A stretch of DNA of 64,000 nucleotides from Hyphomicrobiales bacterium. GTDB lineage: Bacteria > Pseudomonadota > Alphaproteobacteria > Parvibaculales > Parvibaculaceae. Shown here in pieces: positions 48,045-59,475 of the stretch. The DNA is taken from assembly GCA_016124805.1 (NCBI GenBank), contig WGND01000009.1, positions 62,001 through 126,000 of the forward strand, given 5' to 3'. The notes beneath the pieces were generated by a model. It saw only the letters and a program-made list of their open reading frames with translations. It did no database searches and was not told where the DNA came from. The position numbers and the translations under genes are program-made. The stretch's first letter is position 1. Every line of letters begins with the position of its first letter.

Positions 48045-48677
48045 TTATTTGCCGTCCGGTGTTGCCCAGCCGTGGCGGACCAGGTTGACGACGGACTCGA
48101 TATGCCGTTCGACGAATTCGTCGGTGAAGGGCTCCGTCTCCCAGATGCGCCGCGCGCCTGTCGGCGAGATGAAGACGAAGTTCATTGCGCCGGCCAAGGC
48201 GTAAAAATCATAGACGCTTTTCGGGCGGCCGCTCACCTGCGAGATCATGTCGGCAAAACGGCTGACGTGCTTTTCGGCGATATAGTCGCGGCGGTCGGAT
48301 TCCACCTTTGCTTCACGCATGATGAAGTTCAGTATTTCCGGATGACGCGCACTGCCGCGAATATAGGCCGCAATGAGCGCTGCCAGCCGATCGTCTTCGC
48401 GTTTGGCAAGTTCTTCGACGAAGAGCTCACGGATGGCGGCCTCCGACTGGGCAAAGGCCAGATCCACCGCCTGCAGCCAAAGCGCGTCCTTGCCGCCGAA
48501 GTGATACCTCAACAAGCCGCGCTGGACACCGGCCTCCTCCTCGAGCGCAGCAACCGTCACACCCTCGAAACCGACGGTCGCAAACATTTCAACAGCCGCC
48601 TCCAGCAAAAGCCGACGGGTCTCTTCGGCGCGTTTCTGCGGCGCTCTCTGACGTATTTTGGGGGAATGCAAGGCCAT
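48045..48677 (-). CDS. TetR-family regulator, copy 1 of a duplicated pair
   Basis: 210 residues. The N-terminal helix-turn-helix (about 15-62) begins RQRAPQKRAEETRRLLLEAA and carries VAALEEEAGVQRGLLRYHFG. The C-terminal domain (about 90-205) includes ARHPEILNFIMREA and GARRIWETEPF, which match the second copy at 52546-53178 closely (about three quarters identical by eye). It is divergent from autotransporter 1, and a 44-base block in the gap is identical in both copies, so it likely represses its neighbour and itself. Confidence 0.88.
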   Translation of the reverse strand: MALHSPKIRQRAPQKRAEETRRLLLEAAVEMFATVGFEGVTVAALEEEAGVQRGLLRYHFGGKDALWLQAVDLAFAQSEAAIRELFVEELAKREDDRLAALIAAYIRGSARHPEILNFIMREAKVESDRRDYIAEKHVSRFADMISQVSGRPKSVYDFYALAGAMNFVFISPTGARRIWETEPFTDEFVERHIESVVNLVRHGWATPDGK

Positions 48678-48694
48678 GTTGCGATTGACTATAG

Positions 48695-48738
48695 CAGAGT
48701 CGGCACCCGAGTTAACCAGATATTATTTTTGTCATTGA
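48695..48738. promoter_or_regulatory. 44-bp block identical upstream of both TetR/autotransporter pairs (copy 1)
   Basis: Exact match of 44 bases to 53196-53239. It contains an imperfect palindrome (ACTCGGGTGCCGACT on the minus strand) set between a possible -35 and the -10 TATAGT of the TetR gene. It likely holds the shared TetR operator and promoters of both divergent genes. Confidence 0.6.
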
Positions 48739-48774
48739 GCGAAGTTAGTATTTTGTTCATCATAAGTTTGAGTT

Positions 48775-48860
48775 CCGCCATCCGGCGGTAGGGGCCACCC
48801 GTTCTTCGAGATCGGGCGCAAATTGAAACGGGGGTGACGGGTCGCATTTATCGCAGCCCG
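48775..48860 (+). ncRNA. Structured 5-prime leader of autotransporter 1 (three hairpins)
   Basis: Hairpin 1 is CCGCC-ATCC-GGCGG (48775-48788). Hairpin 2 is at 48798-48816 and hairpin 3 at 48838-48860, ending 10 bases before the ATG. The gaps between hairpins are 9 and 21 bases, the same as in the paralogous leader at 53302-53388. Several paired bases differ between the copies in ways that preserve pairing. The function is unknown. Confidence 0.5.
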
Positions 48861-48870
48861 CAATTAGCCA

Positions 48871-51800
48871 ATGACAGATCAGAGTGTACCTGTGGCGCGG
48901 CAGAATGCCTGCCAGACGAAGTTTTCTCGTAATCACCGGCCATTACTGCCATTGACAGCGGCGCTGATGCTCTCCCTCCCGCTGGCGCTGACGAGCAACG
49001 GGGCCTCTGCGGCGGACGCCACCTGGAATGGCACGACGGCCGATTACAATACCGGAACCAACTGGAACACCAGCGCCGCTCCCGGCTCGAGCGACACCGC
49101 CACCTTCGACAATACGGCCACCAATCAGAGCGTGACCTTTTCATCGAGCCCGACCAGCGTCGGCGGCTGGACGTTCAACAGCGGGACCTATGACTTCACG
49201 ATTGGAAGCGGTCAGCACCTCACTTTCGACAATGCCGGCATCATCAACAATGGCGCCAACATCGTCGACAGCTTCGCCATCACGAATAACGGCAGGCTGG
49301 ACTTCTACGGCACCAGTTCAGTTAGCGGCGGCAGCTTGAGCACCACCATCACCACCAACAGCGGTGGCACCACCTACATCGGTGACACCGCCAGCGGCGA
49401 CAACGCGCGTTTCTACATGTATGGCACAGGCTCGCTCGACATCTCCGGCCTTACGAACAGCGGCACCACCGTCGGCTTGTTTGGGGGGAGCGGCGACATC
49501 TTTCTCGGTTCGAAGAACCTGACATTCGCCAGCGACAGCGTGGTCGCCACTTTTTCCGGCGTGATCCAGGACGGCGGCGACAGCGGCGGCACCGGTGGCT
49601 CGCTGACCAAGGGCGGAAGCGCCAGCATACTGACGCTGTCTGGCGCCAACACCTATACCGGCGGAACGGCGATCAACAGCGGCACGGTCGTGATCGGCAA
49701 CGACAGCGCGCTCGGGACCGGTGATGTCACCATGGCGAGCGGAGCAAACATGTTCTTCGCCGGCGATTACACCCTCGCCAACAATTTCGGGCTGACCGGC
49801 GACACCTACTTTAACGTCAGCACTGGCTCCAGCAGCACACTCACCGGGATCATTTCCGACACCGGCGGCACCCCCGGCGTATTGAACAAGTCGGGCAGCG
49901 GCACGCTAACGCTCTCCGGCGCCAACAACTATACGGGCGGCACCAAGGTCACTGGCCTGCTTTTCGTCGGCAACGACAGCGCACTCGGCACGGGCGACGT
50001 GACGATGGCGGCGGGAACGACGCTCGGCTTCACCAGCGGCGTCTTAACGCTTGCCAATAATTTCGGCCTGACGGGCGATCCGACATTCTTCGTCGATACG
50101 GGCAATACCGACACCATCTCCGGTGTGATCTCAGACAGCGGCGCCACGCCGGGCGTGCTTGAAAAGACCGGTGGCGGAACGCTGGTGCTGTCAGGCGTAA
50201 ACACCTATTCCGGCGGCACCACTATCAACGCCGGCACACTGAATGTCTCCGCCGATGGCGGACTTGGCGATACTTCGGGCGACGTCACGCTCGACGGCGG
50301 CACGCTGCAATGGGGCGCGGCTTTCGATTCTGCGCGCGACATCACACTGAACAGCGGTGGTGGCACCTTTGATACCAAAACCTACAACAGCACGCTTTCC
50401 GGCGTGATCTCCGGCGATGGCGCCTTCACCAAGAAAGGCACGTACACGCTTACGCTGTCCGGCGCCAACACCTATACCGGCGACACGACGGTGAATGGCG
50501 GCAACCTTGCAATCAGCGGATCGCTGGCGTCAAGCCAGATCGCGGCAAGCGGCGGCACTCTGCGGTATATCGGCTCCGGCACGGCTGGCAGCGCCACCCT
50601 CACCAGTACCCTCTACAACATTGACTTCTACGATAACAGTACGGCCGCCAACGCCACCATCATCGACAACTGGAGCCTGGGATTCCACGACTCCAGCTCG
50701 GCCGGCAGCGCAAACATTACCAGCGGCCAGTTCATGGATTTCACGGATTCCAGCACGGCCGGCAACGCTACCATCATCAACAATCACAACCTGGCCTTTG
50801 CCAACACCAGTACGGCCGACAATGCAACGATCACCAACAACGATGCCTCCACGAACTTCTACGATACCGCCAGCGGTGGCACCGCGCGCTTCATTCTGAA
50901 CGGTACCGGCAATCTCGACCTTTCCGGTCTTTCGAGCAGCGGCACCACTGCCGGCTCCATCGAGGGGGACGGTTTCGTCTATCTCGGTTCCAAGACCCTC
51001 ACGGTGGGCGGCAACAATCTCGACACCACCTTCTCCGGCACGATCCAGGATACTGGCGGCTACGTTTCCGACACGGGCGGCTCTCTGACCAAGGAGGGCA
51101 CCGGTAATCTGATCCTCTCCAGCGACAGCACCTACACAGGCGCCACCACGGTGAATGGCGGCACATTGTCTGTCAACGGATCGCTCGGAAACACCAGCCT
51201 GCTGACGGTCAATTCAGGCGGCACGCTTGGCGGCACGGGCGCGATGTCAACGACCGTGATCGGCAGCGGCGGCACGCTGGCGCCGGGCAACTCCATCGGC
51301 ACGATCACGGTCGTTGGCGACCTGACATTGTCTTCAGGTTCGACCTATGCCGTGGAAGTCTCGCCGAGTGCGGCGGACAGGACGAATGTGATAGGGTCGG
51401 CCACGATTGCCGGTAATCTGGCGACCTCATTTGAGAGCGGCACCTATACGGCGGGGTCACAATACACGCTCATCAGTTCCATTGGCGGAGTGAGCGGTAC
51501 TTTTGCAGACGTAAGCTCGACGAATGCGCCCTACGGTTTCGCAGCAGATATCAGCTACGATCCGAACAATGTGTTCCTAACCCTGACGCAAAATCTCGAT
51601 CCCAGCGACGCGCAGATTTATGCAGACGGGACGACGGCGGCCATTTCGGACGAGCGGCTGCTCCGCAATGCCGTTCTCGATCATTTGCATAGGCGATCGA
51701 CCGGATCGAACATCTGGGGCGCGGGCTTCGGTGGCTACAGCAAATTCGACGACACGACAGAGCTTGCCCATCACTACTCGGGCGGTATCGCCGGTTTCGA

Positions 51801-52530
51801 TGTGCCGCTGGGCAACGGTATCCGCGCCGGGCTGGCCACCGCCTATGCGAGTTCCAATACGTCCTCTTCGACATCTGGAAGCCTCGCCAGTGGCCGCGCC
51901 ACCAGCGACAGCGGCCATGTGCTTGCCTATGCAAGCTGGTCGCAAGGGCCCCTCGCCCTGCGTGGCGGCACGGCATTCGGCTGGGGCAGCCGCGACATCA
52001 CGCGCTACACCCCCTCTCAGGCGGCAACCAACCAGAGCAGCCGACCTTTTGAGACCAGACAGGTCTTTGCCGACGCGGGCTACAGCTTCAGCACCGCCGG
52101 CGCGAGCTTCGAACCCCATATCGGACTGGATTGGACGCATGCCTCCAGTGGCAGTTTTCAGGAGACCGGCACGTCGGCAACGATCTTCTCGGGGCCCGAC
52201 ACCGATACCTCTGCCGGTTTCACCACGCTGGGCCTGCGTATGGGTCTCGCCGACATACTGATTGGGTCGTTCAACATAACACCAAGCCTCAACCTTGGCT
52301 GGCGGCATGGCTTCCACCTGTCGAGGCCTGACCAGAGCCTGACGCTCAATAGCGCGGGGCTGACGGTCACCGCTGACGGTGTTCCGCTTGCGCGCGATGC
52401 CCTCACCACGACGCTTGGCACGGATATCACCCTCACACCGGCTCTGCGACTGAACCTTGGCTATGACGGTTTCCTGTCCGGCCATTCCCACGACAATGCC
52501 CTCACGGCGCAGTTCAACTGGAGCCTGTGA
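48871..52530 (+). CDS. Autotransporter 1 (PATR-repeat passenger)
   Basis: Type V-secreted outer-membrane protein, 1219 residues. A basic N-terminus with a Sec signal (cut about 48, GASA-AD) is followed by a beta-helix passenger (about 50-830). It has PATR-type repeats of the form LSGANTYTGGT and LSGVNTYSGGT and a middle part with repeated STAxNATI units. A linker (about 790-900, GGTLAPGNSIGT) precedes a C-terminal autotransporter barrel (about 945-1219) that ends in NWSL, not a terminal Phe/Trp. Start by homology with copy 2 (MTDQSVPVARQ / MAYQRTPAARQ). Passenger role unknown: adhesion or cell-cell contact is only a guess. Confidence 0.88.
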   Translation: MTDQSVPVARQNACQTKFSRNHRPLLPLTAALMLSLPLALTSNGASAADATWNGTTADYNTGTNWNTSAAPGSSDTATFDNTATNQSVTFSSSPTSVGGWTFNSGTYDFTIGSGQHLTFDNAGIINNGANIVDSFAITNNGRLDFYGTSSVSGGSLSTTITTNSGGTTYIGDTASGDNARFYMYGTGSLDISGLTNSGTTVGLFGGSGDIFLGSKNLTFASDSVVATFSGVIQDGGDSGGTGGSLTKGGSASILTLSGANTYTGGTAINSGTVVIGNDSALGTGDVTMASGANMFFAGDYTLANNFGLTGDTYFNVSTGSSSTLTGIISDTGGTPGVLNKSGSGTLTLSGANNYTGGTKVTGLLFVGNDSALGTGDVTMAAGTTLGFTSGVLTLANNFGLTGDPTFFVDTGNTDTISGVISDSGATPGVLEKTGGGTLVLSGVNTYSGGTTINAGTLNVSADGGLGDTSGDVTLDGGTLQWGAAFDSARDITLNSGGGTFDTKTYNSTLSGVISGDGAFTKKGTYTLTLSGANTYTGDTTVNGGNLAISGSLASSQIAASGGTLRYIGSGTAGSATLTSTLYNIDFYDNSTAANATIIDNWSLGFHDSSSAGSANITSGQFMDFTDSSTAGNATIINNHNLAFANTSTADNATITNNDASTNFYDTASGGTARFILNGTGNLDLSGLSSSGTTAGSIEGDGFVYLGSKTLTVGGNNLDTTFSGTIQDTGGYVSDTGGSLTKEGTGNLILSSDSTYTGATTVNGGTLSVNGSLGNTSLLTVNSGGTLGGTGAMSTTVIGSGGTLAPGNSIGTITVVGDLTLSSGSTYAVEVSPSAADRTNVIGSATIAGNLATSFESGTYTAGSQYTLISSIGGVSGTFADVSSTNAPYGFAADISYDPNNVFLTLTQNLDPSDAQIYADGTTAAISDERLLRNAVLDHLHRRSTGSNIWGAGFGGYSKFDDTTELAHHYSGGIAGFDVPLGNGIRAGLATAYASSNTSSSTSGSLASGRATSDSGHVLAYASWSQGPLALRGGTAFGWGSRDITRYTPSQAATNQSSRPFETRQVFADAGYSFSTAGASFEPHIGLDWTHASSGSFQETGTSATIFSGPDTDTSAGFTTLGLRMGLADILIGSFNITPSLNLGWRHGFHLSRPDQSLTLNSAGLTVTADGVPLARDALTTTLGTDITLTPALRLNLGYDGFLSGHSHDNALTAQFNWSL

Positions 52531-52545
52531 TGCAAAGGCTTCAAC

Positions 52546-53178
52546 TCACTCGTCATCAGCCGCCGACCAGCCATGGCGGAACAGGGTGATGATGGAGTCG
52601 ATATGCTGTTCGACGAAGGCATCGGAGAAGGGCTCCGTCTCCCAGATGCGCCGCGCACCAGCAGGCGAAACGAAGACGAAGCTCATCGCCCCGATGATGG
52701 CATAAAAGTCAAAGACGCTTTTCGGGCGGTCGTTCACATTTGAGACCGCGTCAGCGAAGCGGCTGACATGTTTTTCGGCCATATAGTCGCGACGGTCGGA
52801 GTCCACCGTCGCTTCCCGCATGATGAAGTTCAGCAATTCAGGATAGCGCGCACTGCTGCGGATATAGGCCGCAATGAGCGCAGCCAGCTGGTCTCCATCG
52901 CGTTTTGCAAGTTCCTCGACGAAAAATTTACGGGTGGCAGCCTCTGAACTGTTGAAGGTGTAATCCACTGCCTGCTGCCACAGCGCTTCCTTGCTGCCGA
53001 AGTGATAGGTCAGCAACCCGCGCTGGACCTCGGCCACCTCTTCGAGGGTGGCCACCATCACGCCCTCGAAGCCGACGGTCGTGAACATCTCGATGGCCGC
53101 CGCGAGCAAACGCTGGCGGGTCTCTTCGGCGCGCTTCTGCGGCGCCCTTTGCCGTGTTTTGGGAGAACCTGAGGTCAT
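52546..53178 (-). CDS. TetR-family regulator, copy 2 of a duplicated pair
   Basis: 210 residues. It is a paralogue of the regulator at 48045: SPKTRQRAPQKRAEETRQRL, VQRGLLTYHFGSKEAL and GARRIWETEPFSD all match at the same positions. The DNA-contact helix is nearly the same, so both regulators may recognise the same operator and cross-regulate. The ATG at 53178 is used; a TTG nine bases earlier is unlikely. Its stop lies 15 bases from the end of autotransporter 1 (convergent). Confidence 0.88.
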   Translation of the reverse strand: MTSGSPKTRQRAPQKRAEETRQRLLAAAIEMFTTVGFEGVMVATLEEVAEVQRGLLTYHFGSKEALWQQAVDYTFNSSEAATRKFFVEELAKRDGDQLAALIAAYIRSSARYPELLNFIMREATVDSDRRDYMAEKHVSRFADAVSNVNDRPKSVFDFYAIIGAMSFVFVSPAGARRIWETEPFSDAFVEQHIDSIITLFRHGWSAADDE

Positions 53179-53195
53179 GTGACGCAAGACACTAT

Positions 53196-53239
53196 CAGAG
53201 TCGGCACCCGAGTTAACCAGATATTATTTTTGTCATTGA
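53196..53239. promoter_or_regulatory. 44-bp block identical upstream of both TetR/autotransporter pairs (copy 2)
   Basis: Exact copy of 48695-48738. It lies just before the copy-2 TetR start and 164 bases before the autotransporter ATG. The bases outside the block are diverged, so the block appears to be held by selection or by recent gene conversion. Confidence 0.6.
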
Positions 53240-53301
53240 ACGAAAATAGTTATTTTCACTAATGTGCAAAATTAATAAAGTATTGATCGTGACTTTGAGC
53301 T

Positions 53302-53388
53302 CCGCCATCCGGCGGAAGGGGGCGCCCGCTCTTTCTGGAGCGGGTGCAAAATCGAACGGGGGTGACGGGCCGCGTTTATCACGGCTCG
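53302..53388 (+). ncRNA. Structured 5-prime leader of autotransporter 2 (three hairpins)
   Basis: Hairpin 1 (53302-53315) is identical to copy 1. Hairpin 2 (53325-53344, CCCGCTC/GAGCGGG) and hairpin 3 (53366-53388) have the same spacings (9 and 21 bases) but different paired bases. The last hairpin ends 14 bases before the ATG. Function unknown. Confidence 0.5.
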
Positions 53389-53402
53389 CGAGTGGGGCAG
53401 CA

Positions 53403-56400
53403 ATGGCGTATCAGAGAACACCTGCGGCGAGGCAGAAAGCCCGCCTGACAAATCTTTTTTTCAATTGCCGGTCCGTTCTGCCGCTCGCGGCGCTCGGCCT
53501 GACGCTGGCCTTCGGCGCGCCCACGGCATGGGCCGATGAAGTCATCGACAACGCGACGGAAAGCGTCATTGGCACTGGTGGCGGCACGCAGGCCAGCCCG
53601 TGGAATATTGGCGATCGTCTGTTCGTGGGGACGTCCAACACCGGCAGACTCGACATTTCCGCTGGCGGCGAGGTCAGCAATACAGATGGCATCGTCGGTA
53701 GTGCCTCCAGTGGAGACGGCACGGTCACCGTGACGGGCGCGGGGTCCACATGGACGAATTCGAACGAGCTTTATGTCGGCAATTTCGGCACCGGTGAGCT
53801 GACCATCGCCGATGACGGCACGGTCGAAGTGAACGGTCCGGGCGGCTATGCATTTGTGGCGAAGAACTCCGGCTCCACCGGCACGCTCAATATCGGCGCG
53901 GCGGAGGGCGATACGGCGGCGGCAGCGGGCAAGCTTGATGCAGATAGACTCGTTTTCGGCGGCGGCAGCGGCACGCTCAATTTCAACCACACCGAAGACT
54001 CTTATGCGTTCGGGGCGGATATTTCCGGCGGGGGCATAATCAATCAGCTTTCGGGCGTAACCACCCTTACGGGCGATTCCTCCGGCTTTACCGGCACCAC
54101 CTATGCGAATGGAGGGACGCTCATCATTACCGGCACACTCGGCGGATCCGGCGGCATTATCGGCAGTAGCGCCGGAACGACGGGAGCCGTATCGGTCCAG
54201 GGCGCGGGTGCAAGCTGGACGACGACGACCTTTCGTGTCGGCGATCAAGGCACCGGCTCGCTGACCATCGCGGGGGGCGGCACGGTAGGCAGCGGCGATG
54301 CGTGGATCGGTAATGCCTCCGGCGCTATCGGCACGGCAAGCGTGACCGGCACCGGCTCAAGCCTGACAGCCTCGAACGGCGTCGATATCGGTCGCTTCGG
54401 CACCGGCACACTCAATATTCTGGACGGGGCGACGGTCACTGCCGGCAACGACTCTTTTATCGGCGACAGAGTGGGCAGCGACGGCACGATGAATGTGTCG
54501 GATGACGGCTCGAGCTTCGATACGGGCAGTAGCGATCTGTTTGTCGGCAACGAGGGCACCGGCGCGCTGAACGTCACGAATGGCGGCGAAGTCAGCACGG
54601 TGGCGAGCTATATCGGTGACGATTCCGGATCGTCGGGAGAGGTGACAGTTACGGGTTCAGGCTCCAGGTTCACAAATTCGGATGTTCTCGCTGTCGGCTA
54701 TGAAGGCAATGGCACGTTGAACATCGCGGATGGCGGCTCGGTCAGCAATACCTATGGCTTTATCGGTGACGCCACCACTTCAACCGGCGCGGTGACTGTC
54801 GATGGCACGGGTTCCACATGGACCAATGCGAACAACGTTTCCGTCGGTTATTATGGCACCGCGGCGTTGACCATCGCCAATGGTGGGACCGTGAGTGCGG
54901 GGAGCGGCAGCGGAACCGTGACACTCGGCATTCTGTCCGGCTCCACCGGCACGCTCAATATCGGCGCGGCGGCGGGCGACACGGCAACGGGAGCGGGCAC
55001 GCTTGACGCAGGCGCGGTGACATTCGGCGACGGAACGGGCGTACTCAATTTCAATCATACGGACACGGATTATGAATTCGCGGCGGCGATTTCCGGGGCC
55101 GGCGCCATCAACCACCTCGCGGGCGTAACCACGCTTACAGGCGTTTCCGTTGGCTATGGCGGCGTGACGACCATCACCGGCGGAACGCTGCAGATCGATG
55201 GAACGCTTGGCGGCGTGCTCAGCGGCGCACAGCGCGTGGAAAATGGCGCTTTTGTCATCAAAAATGGCGGCGTGGCTGTCAACCTGACGGAAGACAGCAC
55301 GGTCGGCACCGACAATGGCGATGTGGGCGCGGCCACGGTCACGGGTGTGGGGTCGAGCTGGGTGAATTCGCACGATCTTTTTGTCGGTGACTTCGGCACC
55401 GGAACGCTGACGATCACCGACGGCGCCGCGGTCAGCAATGACAACGCCTTTGTCGGCAAGGACGCCGTTGCCACCGGCACGGTGAATGTTGCAGGCTCGA
55501 CCTGGAGCAACAACAGCTTTCTCTATATCGGCTTTGAAGGCGCCGCCACGCTGAATGTCGAAAGCGGCGGCTCCGTCGATTCTGAGTCGAGTGTCATCGG
55601 CTACCAGTCCGGTTCCTCCGGCACGGTGACGGTGACCGGGGCGGGATCGAGCCTGACAAGCCAGACGATGCTTGTCGGCGATCGCGGCAACGGAGCGCTC
55701 ACTGTCGCCGATGGCGGCGAGGCCTCCATTGAATATGGCTATGTGGGCGGCGAGACCGGCACGGGTGCGGTGACGGTGACCGGGGCGGGATCGAGCCTGA
55801 CAAGTTCGAACGAACTTGTTGTCGGCGATTTCACGACCGGCACGCTGACGATTGCCGAAGGCGGCGTGGTGCAATCAAGTGCCGGCATTGTCGAAGTCGG
55901 CAAGGAACTGGGCGGCGATGGCACGCTGAACATTGGCGCCGCGGCAGGTGAGACGGCGGTGGGTGCGGGCACGCTTGACGCCGAGATGGTTCAATTCGGT
56001 TTCGGCGCCGGCACAATCAACTTCAACCATACAGACACGGACTATGAATTCGCCGTAGATATTTCAAGGTCATACGGGTCCGGAACAATCAACCAAATAG
56101 CAGGGATCACCAAGCTGACCGCCGATGCCAGCGCCTTCAATGGCATCACCGATATCAGCGGCGGCTCGCTTTACGTAAACACGACGCTTGGCGGCACGGT
56201 CAATGTCACGGGCGGCACGCTGGGTGGTTCGGGTACGCTGGGCAGCGTGACGATAGGCTCCGGCGGCACGCTGACGCCGGGCAATTCCATCGGCACCGTC
56301 ACCGTGAGCGGCGATCTCCTCTTCAACAGCGGCTCAAACTACAATGTCGAGGTCTCGCCGAGCGATGCCGACCGCACCGACGTCACCGGCACAGCGACGC

Positions 56401-57719
56401 TTGCGGGCAGCGTGAACGCCACCTATGAGGCGGGCAGCTATACGGCCAAGCAATATACCATCCTCAATGCGGTGGGCGGCCTCAGCGGCACGTTCGATAC
56501 GCTTGCCAATAGCAGCCTGCCGAGCAATATCAGCGCGGCGCTGGGCTATGACGCCAATAATGTCTATCTCGATCTGACGCTCAGCTACACACCACCCGGC
56601 GGGCTGAACACCAACCAGCAGAATGTCGGCGATGCGCTGACCGATTACTTCAACACGAATGGCGGCCTCTCGACTCTGTTCACCGACCTGTCGGCGAACG
56701 GCCTGAGCCAGACTGACGGCGAAGTCGGTGCCGGTGTGCAGCAGATGGGGTTCGACAGTGCCGACCTCTTCATGAACAGCGTGTTCGACAAGGCGCTCAG
56801 CCAGGCGCCCGGGCGCAATGTGCAGGTGGCCTCCGCCGATGCTGCGGCGTCTTTCAGCCAGGCATCAGAGGCCGAGACGGGCTGGGGCTCATGGGCGGCA
56901 GCCTATGGCGGCACCGCCAGCGTGGATGATGACAACGCGACCGGTTCGCATGACACCACCAGCCATGTCTATGGCCTGGCTGCCGGTGCCGATTATCGCC
57001 TGTCGGCGGATAGCCATCTGGGCTTTGCGCTTGGCGGTGCGAGTTCGCGTTTCTCGCTGGCGGAAGGTTTCGGCTCGGGCGAGGCCGACATATTCAATGC
57101 CGCGCTTTACGGGCGGCAGGCTTTCGAGGCCGGCTACCTTGCTGCCGCGCTGGGCTATTCATGGCAGGACGCAACGACAGAGCGGACCGTGACATCGTCC
57201 GGCATCGACGTGTTGCAGGCCTCGTTCCACCCGCAGGCGCTGAGCGCACGTCTGGAAGCCGGGCACCGCTTTGAAACGGGCTTCTTCGGCGTGACGCCTT
57301 ATGCCGGCATGCAATCAACCACCTTCTTCATGCCGTCCTATCGCGAGCAGGCGATCTCTGGCTCCAGCCAGTTCGCACTGGCCTATGACGCGCGTCAGGT
57401 TACGGCGATGCGCAGCGAATTGGGCGCGCGCTTTGATGAGCGCATCGCATTTGCCGACAAGGTGCTGACGCTGAAGCCAAAACTCGCCTGGGCGCATGAC
57501 TGGAACCGCGACCGCCGCGCAACGGCGAGCTTCCAGCAGCTTGCAGGCACGAGCTTCACGGTGAACGGGGCTGAACCGGCAGCCGATTCACTGCTGGTGT
57601 CGGCGGGGGCAGAGCTTGCCCTGAGTGATGGCTGGGCACTCGCCGCCGATTTCGACAGCGAATTCTCCGGCACCACCACAAGCTATGCCGGCAAGGGCTC
57701 GATCCGCTGGGCCTGGTAG
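53403..57719 (+). CDS. Autotransporter 2 (tandem-repeat passenger)
   Basis: 1438 residues. A Sec signal (cut about 43, TAWA-DE) is followed by a passenger (about 45-1010) of degenerate repeats of the form VTGAGSTWTNS-LYVGxxGTGTLTIADGGTV. Three longer blocks start TLNIGAAxGDTA and end in NFNHT and a short spacer. A linker (GGTLTPGNSIGT, SPSDADRTDVTG) very like that of autotransporter 1 leads to the barrel (about 1150-1438), which ends SIRWAW. The barrel is not closely similar to copy 1. The ATG at 53403 is supported by alignment with the copy-1 N-terminus; a start at 53262 would run through the leader. Confidence 0.88.
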   Translation: MAYQRTPAARQKARLTNLFFNCRSVLPLAALGLTLAFGAPTAWADEVIDNATESVIGTGGGTQASPWNIGDRLFVGTSNTGRLDISAGGEVSNTDGIVGSASSGDGTVTVTGAGSTWTNSNELYVGNFGTGELTIADDGTVEVNGPGGYAFVAKNSGSTGTLNIGAAEGDTAAAAGKLDADRLVFGGGSGTLNFNHTEDSYAFGADISGGGIINQLSGVTTLTGDSSGFTGTTYANGGTLIITGTLGGSGGIIGSSAGTTGAVSVQGAGASWTTTTFRVGDQGTGSLTIAGGGTVGSGDAWIGNASGAIGTASVTGTGSSLTASNGVDIGRFGTGTLNILDGATVTAGNDSFIGDRVGSDGTMNVSDDGSSFDTGSSDLFVGNEGTGALNVTNGGEVSTVASYIGDDSGSSGEVTVTGSGSRFTNSDVLAVGYEGNGTLNIADGGSVSNTYGFIGDATTSTGAVTVDGTGSTWTNANNVSVGYYGTAALTIANGGTVSAGSGSGTVTLGILSGSTGTLNIGAAAGDTATGAGTLDAGAVTFGDGTGVLNFNHTDTDYEFAAAISGAGAINHLAGVTTLTGVSVGYGGVTTITGGTLQIDGTLGGVLSGAQRVENGAFVIKNGGVAVNLTEDSTVGTDNGDVGAATVTGVGSSWVNSHDLFVGDFGTGTLTITDGAAVSNDNAFVGKDAVATGTVNVAGSTWSNNSFLYIGFEGAATLNVESGGSVDSESSVIGYQSGSSGTVTVTGAGSSLTSQTMLVGDRGNGALTVADGGEASIEYGYVGGETGTGAVTVTGAGSSLTSSNELVVGDFTTGTLTIAEGGVVQSSAGIVEVGKELGGDGTLNIGAAAGETAVGAGTLDAEMVQFGFGAGTINFNHTDTDYEFAVDISRSYGSGTINQIAGITKLTADASAFNGITDISGGSLYVNTTLGGTVNVTGGTLGGSGTLGSVTIGSGGTLTPGNSIGTVTVSGDLLFNSGSNYNVEVSPSDADRTDVTGTATLAGSVNATYEAGSYTAKQYTILNAVGGLSGTFDTLANSSLPSNISAALGYDANNVYLDLTLSYTPPGGLNTNQQNVGDALTDYFNTNGGLSTLFTDLSANGLSQTDGEVGAGVQQMGFDSADLFMNSVFDKALSQAPGRNVQVASADAAASFSQASEAETGWGSWAAAYGGTASVDDDNATGSHDTTSHVYGLAAGADYRLSADSHLGFALGGASSRFSLAEGFGSGEADIFNAALYGRQAFEAGYLAAALGYSWQDATTERTVTSSGIDVLQASFHPQALSARLEAGHRFETGFFGVTPYAGMQSTTFFMPSYREQAISGSSQFALAYDARQVTAMRSELGARFDERIAFADKVLTLKPKLAWAHDWNRDRRATASFQQLAGTSFTVNGAEPAADSLLVSAGAELALSDGWALAADFDSEFSGTTTSYAGKGSIRWAW

Positions 57720-57951
57720 GGGGCGGGGGCGGGATATCGTTCGTTGATGGCATCCGCTTTCATCGTTAATTGATGCGGCGGGCATGGCGTGCTCAGATTG
57801 CCCTGCCCGCTCAGCCAAGATCCAATGTCCGGCTGCGTGCGTATCAGACAAGAAGAAAGCAATCGTTTCGTTCTTGCTGGTCCTAAAAACACCAAAAGCT
57901 GCTCTGCGCGGTGCAGAGGTGAATTGAAGCGACCGGATGAGGCTGGTTGAC

Positions 57952-59475
57952 ATGGGAACATTGAGACTTGTGCTCGGCGATCAGCTGACGCGAGAAATTT
58001 CGGCACTGCAGGATATCGATATCTCTGCCGACATTGTCCTGTTGGCGGAGGTCCGAACTGAAGCAAGCTATGTTCCGCATCACAAGCAGAAGATTGTGAT
58101 GATTTTTTCAGCCATGAGGCATTTCGCCGACATGCTGCAAGAGGAAGGCATAAACATTCACTATACGGACTATCTTGACCCGGAAAATACGGGATCGCTC
58201 ATCGCGGAAATAGGCCGTATCGCAAAGCACCACAAATTCGACAGATTGGTTGTGACGGAACCCGGCGAATGGCGCGTCCTGGATGAATTGCGGCGTGTTG
58301 AAACCGAGGCAGGCATCGCGGTCGAAATCCGGGAAGATGACCGGTATTTTGCAACCCATGCCCGTTTCGGGAAATGGTTGCAGGGTCGAAAATCCCTGAG
58401 AATGGAATATTTCTACCGGGAAATGCGCCGCGAAACCGGCATTCTCATGGACGGAGACAAGCCTGCTGGTGGCGAATGGAATTTTGATGCCGACAACAGA
58501 AAGGCATTAGCCAAAAGCGCGATATTGCCGGAAAGATTGCGCTTTGCACCGGACACCATCACCTGCGATGTCATGGAGATGGTCGCGACCGAGTTTCCGG
58601 AGAATTTTGGCGATCTCACGGATTTCGGCTGGGCGACAACGCGTCGCGATGCGCTGATGGCCCTTGATCAATTCATTGAAGAGATCCTTCCGCATTTTGG
58701 CGATTTTCAGGACGCCATGCGCGCAGGCGCGCCCTTCATTTATCACTCCCTGCTGTCGCCCTATCTCAATATCGGCCTGCTGACACCTACCGAAATCTGC
58801 GACAGGGCCGAAAAAGCCTATCTGGAGAGTGCTGCGCCCATCAACGCTGTGGAAGGCTTTATCCGCCAGATTCTGGGCTGGCGGGAATATGTGCGCGGCA
58901 TCTATTGGCATAAAATGCCTGACTATGCGGACAGCAATTTTCTCGGCGCCCACCGCCCTCTTCCATCACTCTACTGGACCGGCAAGACGGATATGCGGTG
59001 CATGTCCGAGGTTGTCGAACAGACCCGGGCATATGCCTATTCCCATCACATTCAGCGCCTTATGGTAACCGGCAATTTCGCCTTGCTCGCCGGCATCTCG
59101 CCCAGGGACGTCTCCGACTGGTATCTGGCTGTTTATGCCGATGCCTTTGAATGGGTGGAGCTGCCAAACACGATCGGCATGGCTCTTTTCGCCGATGGCG
59201 GCATTCTCGCATCCAAGCCATATGCCGCCTCAGGCGCCTATATCAATCGCATGTCAAATTTCTGCGCGGAATGCCACTACAAGGTGAAAGAGAAATCGGG
59301 GGAGGACGCCTGCCCATTCAACTATCTCTACTGGGCATTTCTCATACGCAATGAACAGCACCTCGCCCGGAATCCACGCATGCGGATGCCCTATCGCACA
59401 TTGGAAAAATGGTCCGTCAAACAGAAACAGACATGCATGGATGAGGCAGAAAGATTTTTGTCCAGGATTGATTAG
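57952..59475 (+). CDS. phrB: FeS-type bacterial (6-4) photolyase/cryptochrome (PhrB-like)
   Basis: Light-driven repair enzyme for (6-4) photoproducts with FAD, a lumazine antenna and a [4Fe-4S] cluster, 507 residues, the length of A. tumefaciens PhrB. The cluster cysteines are C350 (in DMRCMSE), C438 and C441 (NFCAECHYK) and C454 (EDACPF), exactly the numbering known for PhrB. The N-terminal antenna domain begins LRLVLGDQL. The ATG at 57952 is chosen because it gives this numbering. A 15-base longer frame exists at 57937. Confidence 0.94.
   Translation: MGTLRLVLGDQLTREISALQDIDISADIVLLAEVRTEASYVPHHKQKIVMIFSAMRHFADMLQEEGINIHYTDYLDPENTGSLIAEIGRIAKHHKFDRLVVTEPGEWRVLDELRRVETEAGIAVEIREDDRYFATHARFGKWLQGRKSLRMEYFYREMRRETGILMDGDKPAGGEWNFDADNRKALAKSAILPERLRFAPDTITCDVMEMVATEFPENFGDLTDFGWATTRRDALMALDQFIEEILPHFGDFQDAMRAGAPFIYHSLLSPYLNIGLLTPTEICDRAEKAYLESAAPINAVEGFIRQILGWREYVRGIYWHKMPDYADSNFLGAHRPLPSLYWTGKTDMRCMSEVVEQTRAYAYSHHIQRLMVTGNFALLAGISPRDVSDWYLAVYADAFEWVELPNTIGMALFADGGILASKPYAASGAYINRMSNFCAECHYKVKEKSGEDACPFNYLYWAFLIRNEQHLARNPRMRMPYRTLEKWSVKQKQTCMDEAERFLSRID

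Follow-up and report, generated by a model that had tools for sequence, protein, structure and literature searches.

In phage T4 an RNA structure shortens the distance between the Shine-Dalgarno (SD) sequence and the AUG of genes 25 and 38 from 27 to 11 and from 22 to 5 nucleotides (nt), respectively, and mutations weakening the structure reduce initiation, as stated in a review of post-transcriptional control in T4 (PMC3014915, excerpts). Here we describe a possibly similar arrangement in a window of 64,000 nt (bases 62001-126000 of contig 14) from the 3.2-Mb draft genome of a Hyphomicrobiales bacterium of the family Parvibaculaceae (G000), where two autotransporter genes are each preceded by a leader with three potential hairpins (H1, H2 and H3). 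The two leaders of the window are named copy 1 and copy 2, and a third leader was found in another genome of the same genus, G026. As in the T4 genes, the start codon seems to be out of normal reach of a strong SD-like sequence, the box, with a potential hairpin in between: the distance from the box to the predicted ATG is 33 nt in copy 1, 37 nt in copy 2 and 34 nt in G026, and a folded H3 would, by geometry only, leave 10, 14 and 11 nt. The differences from T4 are that bacterial chromosomal autotransporter genes are concerned, that two extra hairpins are located upstream, that the arrangement is predicted from sequence, and that a nearer, weak second SD sequence is present in copy 2 and G026.

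Two further systems are comparable. In the thrS leader of E. coli an accommodated hairpin separates an upstream single-stranded binding region from the rest of the site, and the mRNA is repressed by its own product, the synthetase. This leader is treated as a split ribosome-binding site whose hairpin is reportedly accommodated by the ribosome without unfolding, as ribosomes do with leader hairpins, according to a biophysical study (PMC3936740, excerpts). The leaders of the window resemble it in the proposed split site, and differ in that their hairpin sits between the SD sequence and the ATG. In Bartonella, structured Brt RNAs beside genes of DNA-binding proteins act on badA, which encodes an autotransporter (PMC5387305, excerpt). 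Common to both cases is a lineage-specific structured RNA that is repeated near genes of DNA-binding proteins and linked to autotransporter expression. Compared by description only, the Brt RNAs are transcripts of 194-203 nt with a helix-turn-helix (HTH) gene immediately downstream (PMC5387305, same excerpt), whereas in the window the TetR gene is divergent and it is the autotransporter gene itself that follows the leader.

Across the three leaders the longest invariant block, AACGGGGGTGACGGG (15 nt), comprises the linker before H3 and the first four bases of H3, and the invariant GGGGGTGA represents an extended SD-like box. The 3' tail of the 16S rRNA with the anti-SD has the sequence UCACCUCC, and GGGGGUGA pairs with 8 of 8 consecutive bases of this tail at -14.3 kcal/mol in all three leaders. 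The best sites within 20 nt of 25 open reading frame (ORF) starts of the window, which were hand-picked from mechanical ORFs and in some cases are possibly wrong, had a median of -4.6 kcal/mol, and none of them was better than -9.5 kcal/mol. On both strands of the 64 kb there are 12 sites at -14 kcal/mol or better, including the two boxes, and 0.010 such sites are expected per 110 nt. A distance of 33 to 37 nt between SD sequence and ATG is too far for ordinary use, and copy 1 is without a proximal SD sequence, as the best site within 20 nt of its ATG has only -0.1 kcal/mol; near the gene of copy 1 no other sequence comes close to the box in its match to the 16S tail. H3 has a length of 23 nt and begins at the base after the box. 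With the box held single-stranded, H3 was predicted to pair with probabilities of 0.98 and 0.95 in copy 1 and of 0.98 and 0.97 in copy 2 (with 9 and 40 nt of coding sequence, respectively); the H3 probability of copy 2 is 0.83 with 9 nt and 0.96 with 40 nt of coding sequence.

The reading that we favor, with a probability of about 0.4, is that the leader is a split ribosome-binding site in which H3 bridges the distance between box and ATG. The mRNA would start upstream of H1, the 30S ribosome would dock on the GGGGGUGA box, H3 would stay folded and act as the bridge of a split ribosome-binding site, also called 'accommodated', with translation beginning at the ATG beyond H3. H1 and H2 probably shield the 5' end of the mRNA and the divergent TetR protein probably sets transcription. 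Any translational regulation would then work through the accessibility of the box or through a change of H3.

Several observations weigh against a bridging function of H3. The anti-SD sequence was taken from general knowledge, and this assembly gave no match to an exact 17-nt pattern of the 16S end. G-rich runs readily match here, because a second SD-like sequence, GGAAGGGGGC, located between H1 and H2 in copy 2 (53314-53323) and in G026, also scores -14.2 kcal/mol; in copy 1 the six best-scoring sites do not include one of this type. In the folds predicted for 37°C the box is mostly paired, with unpaired probabilities of 0.45 in copy 1, 0.26 in copy 2 and 0.62 in G026. The predicted H3 probability of copy 1 depends on the context (0.97 with 9 nt and 0.19 with 40 nt of coding sequence) and on temperature, the pairing rising from 0.01 at 20°C to 0.64 at 55°C. 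For G026 it is 0.15 with 9 nt and 0.01 with 40 nt of coding sequence, and with the box single-stranded it reaches only 0.69 and 0.07, respectively. A nearer GGGG is available in copy 2 (-6.9 kcal/mol) and G026 (-6.5 kcal/mol), and the loop of the G026 H3 contains an in-frame ATG 10 nt past the box; therefore bridging would be needed only in copy 1, and the start codon of G026 may differ from the assigned one. Since there are only three leaders, which are kin by descent, the conservation of the box counts as a single ancestral event. In addition, a spacing of 10-14 nt exceeds the usual optimum. Scans of the two leader regions gave no promoter-like site on the plus strand, and for this reason we only infer the start of the mRNA.

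According to the ORF list and Pfam, the leaders are part of two tandem modules, in each of which a minus-strand gene of the TetR family diverges from an autotransporter gene on the plus strand (Table 1). The TetR proteins of the window are 73% identical to each other. The DNA identity between copies 1 and 2 amounts to 79% for tetR, 80% for the intergenic part upstream and 79% for the leader; it is 68% over the first 105 nt of the autotransporter gene and drops to 47% from the start of the passenger, which indicates that regulator, promoter region, leader and signal peptide were duplicated before different passengers. The leaders could be plain copies, alike by descent, whose hairpins, in a sequence of 60% GC, have no function. 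The equal identity of leader and tetR coding sequence agrees with this explanation, but it also means that a non-coding leader is as well conserved as coding sequence, and both this and the 15-nt invariant block speak against plain copies.

The initial annotation, which proposed a conserved three-hairpin leader, described its geometry correctly: H1 is identical in both leaders (CCGCC-ATCC-GGCGG, 48775-48788 and 53302-53315), the distances between the hairpins are equal in both copies (9 nt from H1 to H2 and 21 nt from H2 to H3 if the outer C-G pair of H3 is counted, 22 nt without that pair), and H3 ends 10 and 14 nt before the respective start codon. The further statement that H2 and H3 have different bases and keep their pairing could not be maintained. 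In a 25-pair reference structure drawn from copy 2, nine pairs differ between the window copies and seven of them are broken in one copy, six in copy 1; no pair is rescued by a double change, and the two differing pairs that still form do so via G-U. That most stem differences break pairs is in line with plain copies, and so is the ordinary folding of the complete leader in copy 1 (z +0.2 and +0.1 compared with shuffles) and G026 (z +0.8); copy 2 folds somewhat better than its shuffles (z -2.2 and -1.6). Isolated hairpins, which were chosen beforehand, were in most cases more stable than shuffles, with the following fractions of equally stable shuffles for copy 1, copy 2 and G026: 0.006, 0.002 and 0.026 for H1, 0.102, 0.000 and 0.196 for H2, and 0.024, 0.000 and 0.002 for H3. 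All three hairpins are predicted to be dominant in context only in copy 2. For H2 the in-context probability amounts to 0.19-0.26 in copy 1 and only to 0.01 in G026, and H1 is predicted to form at 37°C with 0.98 in copy 2, 0.97 in G026 and 0.46 in copy 1.

Using the three leaders together, RNAalifold returned the three-hairpin fold unaided. The consensus energy is -38.4 compared with -23.9 ± 3.3 for column shuffles (z -4.4, 0 of 300 as good), where the shuffles do not preserve dinucleotides, and the conservation index is 0.87 compared with 0.56 after shuffling. The consensus of leader pairs is weaker, with z values of -1.3 (20 of 300 as good), -2.4 (3 of 300) and -1.6 (19 of 300). The hairpin core reaches z -4.5 on the forward strand, with 0 of 300 shuffles as good, and -4.3 on the reverse strand, and this core fold argues against plain copies. 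Among 50 sliding windows along the module the lowest forward z, -5.2 (reverse -6.1), falls on H1 and most of H2, which also speaks against them, but this value is inflated by the mixture of AT-rich and GC-rich parts. Further leader windows (columns 750-850 and 775-875, both z -2.4, and 800-900, z +0.1) are no better than the best windows of the tetR coding sequence (z -3.1 and -3.0). Covariation in additional homologues, on which the initial annotation had made its proposal depend, is absent: one of 25 pairs is compensated over the three leaders, the shuffled mean is 1.0, and the covariation term of RNAalifold is a penalty (+2.34). These two results again fit plain copies, which we nevertheless regard as distinctly unlikely. 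As the consensus fold is more stable than after column shuffling, the inverted repeats are likely to be under constraint, be it as RNA structure or as DNA palindromes, and we consider this moderately supported.

The proposed selection on RNA structure was thus substantiated in part, by the consensus fold with z around -4.5; covariation is missing, and a preference for the mRNA strand is confined to H3. The z values on the forward and reverse strands are -2.7 and -4.0 for H1, -5.6 and -6.2 for H2, and -3.5 and -2.6 for H3. Since the scores of the reverse strand are equal or better, H1 and H2 could be DNA palindromes. The energy of H3 is -14.9 kcal/mol on the mRNA strand and -10.0 kcal/mol on the reverse strand, and this hairpin is maintained partly through G-U pairs; a constraint at the RNA level is suggested for H3 only. 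The repeats might be DNA sites, namely operators for the divergent TetR protein or another regulator, and no RNA structures at all. Besides the strand behavior of H1 and H2, the conservation of the divergent TetR gene together with the leader in all three copies and the retention of both arms of H1 in G026, in spite of a changed center, are compatible with such sites. We still hold this to be unlikely, as H3 favors the mRNA strand and the three repeats differ in sequence, so that they are not copies of one operator. Furthermore, the repeats adjoin the ATG and appear to lie past the AT-rich probable promoter, and a 44-bp identical stretch by the tetR promoter would be a more usual place for an operator.

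When 27 genomes of the genus, the own genome among them, were searched at the DNA level, the leader was detected in one of the 26 others, G026. The gene order there is the same as in the window, with TetR, leader and autotransporter (L071:2553-6104); the latter is listed at 1183 amino acids (aa), a length that counts from the ATG inside the loop of H3. Its passenger resembles autotransporter 1 (80% over residues 2-560), whereas leader and signal peptide are closer to copy 2 (79% each) than to copy 1 (66% and 70%), and for tetR copy 1 is the slightly closer relative (84%, compared with 82% for copy 2). An exchange of leader and signal peptide by swapping or gene conversion, or a faster change in copy 1, would explain this mosaic.

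Searches at the family and order level in 40 genomes gave strong matches only in G000 and G026. Weak DNA matches to the H1 region in G007, G006 and at a second place in G026 (E 0.001-0.008) are located inside long open frames. With a model of the leader, whose E-values are rough, two other matches at E <= 1e-4 were obtained in a class sample of 385 genomes and two in a phylum sample of 398 genomes (one with E 1e-6), all four in long ORFs. Weak model matches at E <= 1 occur in 32 of the 40 genomes; six of them were viewed as 150-nt stretches, plus one in the own genome (L126), which lies inside a long ORF. Box-like sequences with up to two mismatches are present in 39 of the 40 genomes, and the 140 matches compared with 125 for the reversed pattern give no sign of a wider regulon; the nearest other box-like copy of the own genome (one mismatch) is situated inside a minus-strand open frame (L003). 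A search of genome contigs for TetR relatives gave 61 loci, 21-47% identical in the best segment. Among 20 TetR matches outside the own genome in the class sample, no autotransporter was seen within about 1.5 kb at the eight loci viewed by eye. A plasmid search gave no match, and none was obtained in viral contigs with the N-terminal 276 aa of autotransporter 1. The N-terminus of autotransporter 2 detected in the 40 genomes itself, G026 and two weak matches. One of these (L153) falls in the reading frame of an unrelated gene, and at the other (L154) a surface-protein-like ORF combines a similar signal peptide with a different leader that has an ordinary GAGGG before the ATG; this search has a short reach, because it missed copy 1 of the own genome. 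Titles of the literature on autotransporters of Parvibaculum, the assumed genus, and on RNA thermometers of autotransporters did not mention this leader. We regard the structured leader as real, narrow in its distribution and part of a duplicated TetR/autotransporter module.

A search of Rfam 15 at the gathering score identified no family on the leaders and only a tRNA elsewhere in the window, and accordingly no known Rfam family claims the leader; at E up to 5 each leader had one sub-threshold match (CRISPR-DR9 and sn2841). The idea of a previously unknown cis-regulatory RNA was borne out insofar as no family matches, but the evidence leans to ribosome loading rather than to a sensor. A structured leader could also serve another role without any bridging, with hairpins at the 5' end that stabilize the mRNA or with the invariant G-rich linker bound by a protein or small RNA. 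Invariant linkers between hairpins are typical of binding sites, the consensus fold beats shuffles, and H1 is predicted to form almost completely in copy 2 and G026. The low H1 probability of copy 1, the missing Rfam match, the lack of further recognized leaders in the class and phylum samples and the box-like matches, hardly above the reversed control, make us rate such a role as rather unlikely.

RNA thermometers of the ROSE and fourU types have a hairpin in the 5' untranslated region (5' UTR) near the ribosome-binding site, and the position of H3 close to this region led the initial annotation to consider a thermosensor. From 10 to 60°C the predicted exposure of the start codon increases from 0.40 to 0.72 in copy 1, from 0.36 to 0.63 in copy 2 and from 0.37 to 0.62 in G026, gradually and without a switch, and the proximal region of copy 2 becomes more exposed (0.38 to 0.60). 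In copy 1 heat favors H3, as given above, which is also in line with a thermosensor. Over the same range the exposure of the box changes from 0.50 to 0.30 in copy 1, from 0.25 to 0.32 in copy 2 and from 0.61 to 0.62 in G026, whereas the proximal region of copy 1 becomes less exposed (0.72 to 0.47) and that of G026 remains at 0.17-0.19. At 55°C H2 and H3 of copy 2 are still predicted to be paired (1.00 and 0.89). Unlike in ROSE and fourU elements, the box and the assigned ATG are located outside H1-H3, and neither a common temperature switch nor an Rfam match was found. A thermosensor is therefore poorly supported and very improbable.

Two other candidates concerning the leader were rejected. 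A transcription attenuator was discarded with 0 terminator-like sites in 48600-48900 and 53100-53430, and sequestration of the box by one conserved partner was dismissed because the predicted partners differ among the leaders.

Table 1. Positions of leader elements and genes of the two modules in the window.
Feature	Position	Strand	Basis or remark
Invariant GGGGGTGA, extended SD-like box, copy 1	48830..48837	+	-14.3 kcal/mol with 16S tail
Invariant GGGGGTGA, extended SD-like box, copy 2	53358..53365	+	Duplex energy
H1, copy 1	48774..48789	+	Sequence, folding
H2, copy 1, weak, mismatched	48798..48816	+	Folding; in-context pairing probability 0.19-0.26
H3, copy 1, proposed bridging hairpin, 10 nt before ATG 48871	48838..48860	+	Folding
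H1, copy 2	53301..53316	+	Sequence, folding
H2, copy 2	53322..53347	+	-21.6 kcal/mol alone
H3, copy 2, proposed bridging hairpin, 14 nt before ATG 53403	53366..53388	+	Folding
TetR-family regulator gene, copy 1, divergent from autotransporter 1	48045..48677	-	ORF; Pfam TetR_N 1.3e-12; 79% DNA identity to copy 2
Autotransporter 1, 1219 aa, PATR repeats and beta-domain	48871..52530	+	ORF, Pfam
TetR-family regulator gene, copy 2	52546..53187	-	ORF, Pfam, protein comparison
Autotransporter 2, 1438 aa from ATG 53403, beta-domain	53403..57719	+	ORF, Pfam
44-bp stretch, probable control region	48695..48738	.	Identical to 53196-53239; between tetR and leader
44-bp stretch, second copy	53196..53239	.	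Identical to 48695-48738

The 44-bp stretch differs in G026. Beside it a minus-strand promoter-like site (48715-48688, TTAACT-16-TATAGT) was identified in copy 1, from which the tetR transcript would start almost at its ATG; a promoter scan of the copy 2 region showed no counterpart of this site. Inside the stretch a TCGG-N3-CCGA repeat was spotted by eye, and this is a possible TetR operator. In the region 53222-53277 copy 2 contains approximately 26 nt extra that adjoin the promoter region and are missing from copy 1 and G026. They sit in a 27-nt imperfect inverted repeat (70% complementary), and this addition may alter the promoter. The frame of autotransporter 2 stays open through the entire leader, upstream to the ATG at 53262 (53262-53402). 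A coding leader was rejected: in copy 1 the frame is interrupted by a TAG two codons ahead of the ATG and the leader has an indel, which is why the upstream open frame is not a conserved N-terminus. Directly 3' of autotransporter 2 a deoxyribodipyrimidine photolyase-related protein is encoded (57937-59475; Pfam DPRP, 9.1e-83).

A more far-reaching interpretation would be a family of chromosomal surface-protein genes of bacteria with a conserved split ribosome-binding site, in which an extended SD sequence lies 33-37 nt out, a hairpin forms the bridge, two upstream hairpins tune the access, and leader and signal peptide move between passengers; we regard this as doubtful. The arrangement itself is of a rare but already known kind. 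If our reading is wrong, the locus is an ordinary duplicated leader. If it is true, a natural bacterial case would be added to the split sites of phage T4 and of thrS in E. coli, and searches for SD sequences limited to about 20 nt upstream of the start codon would overlook such genes.

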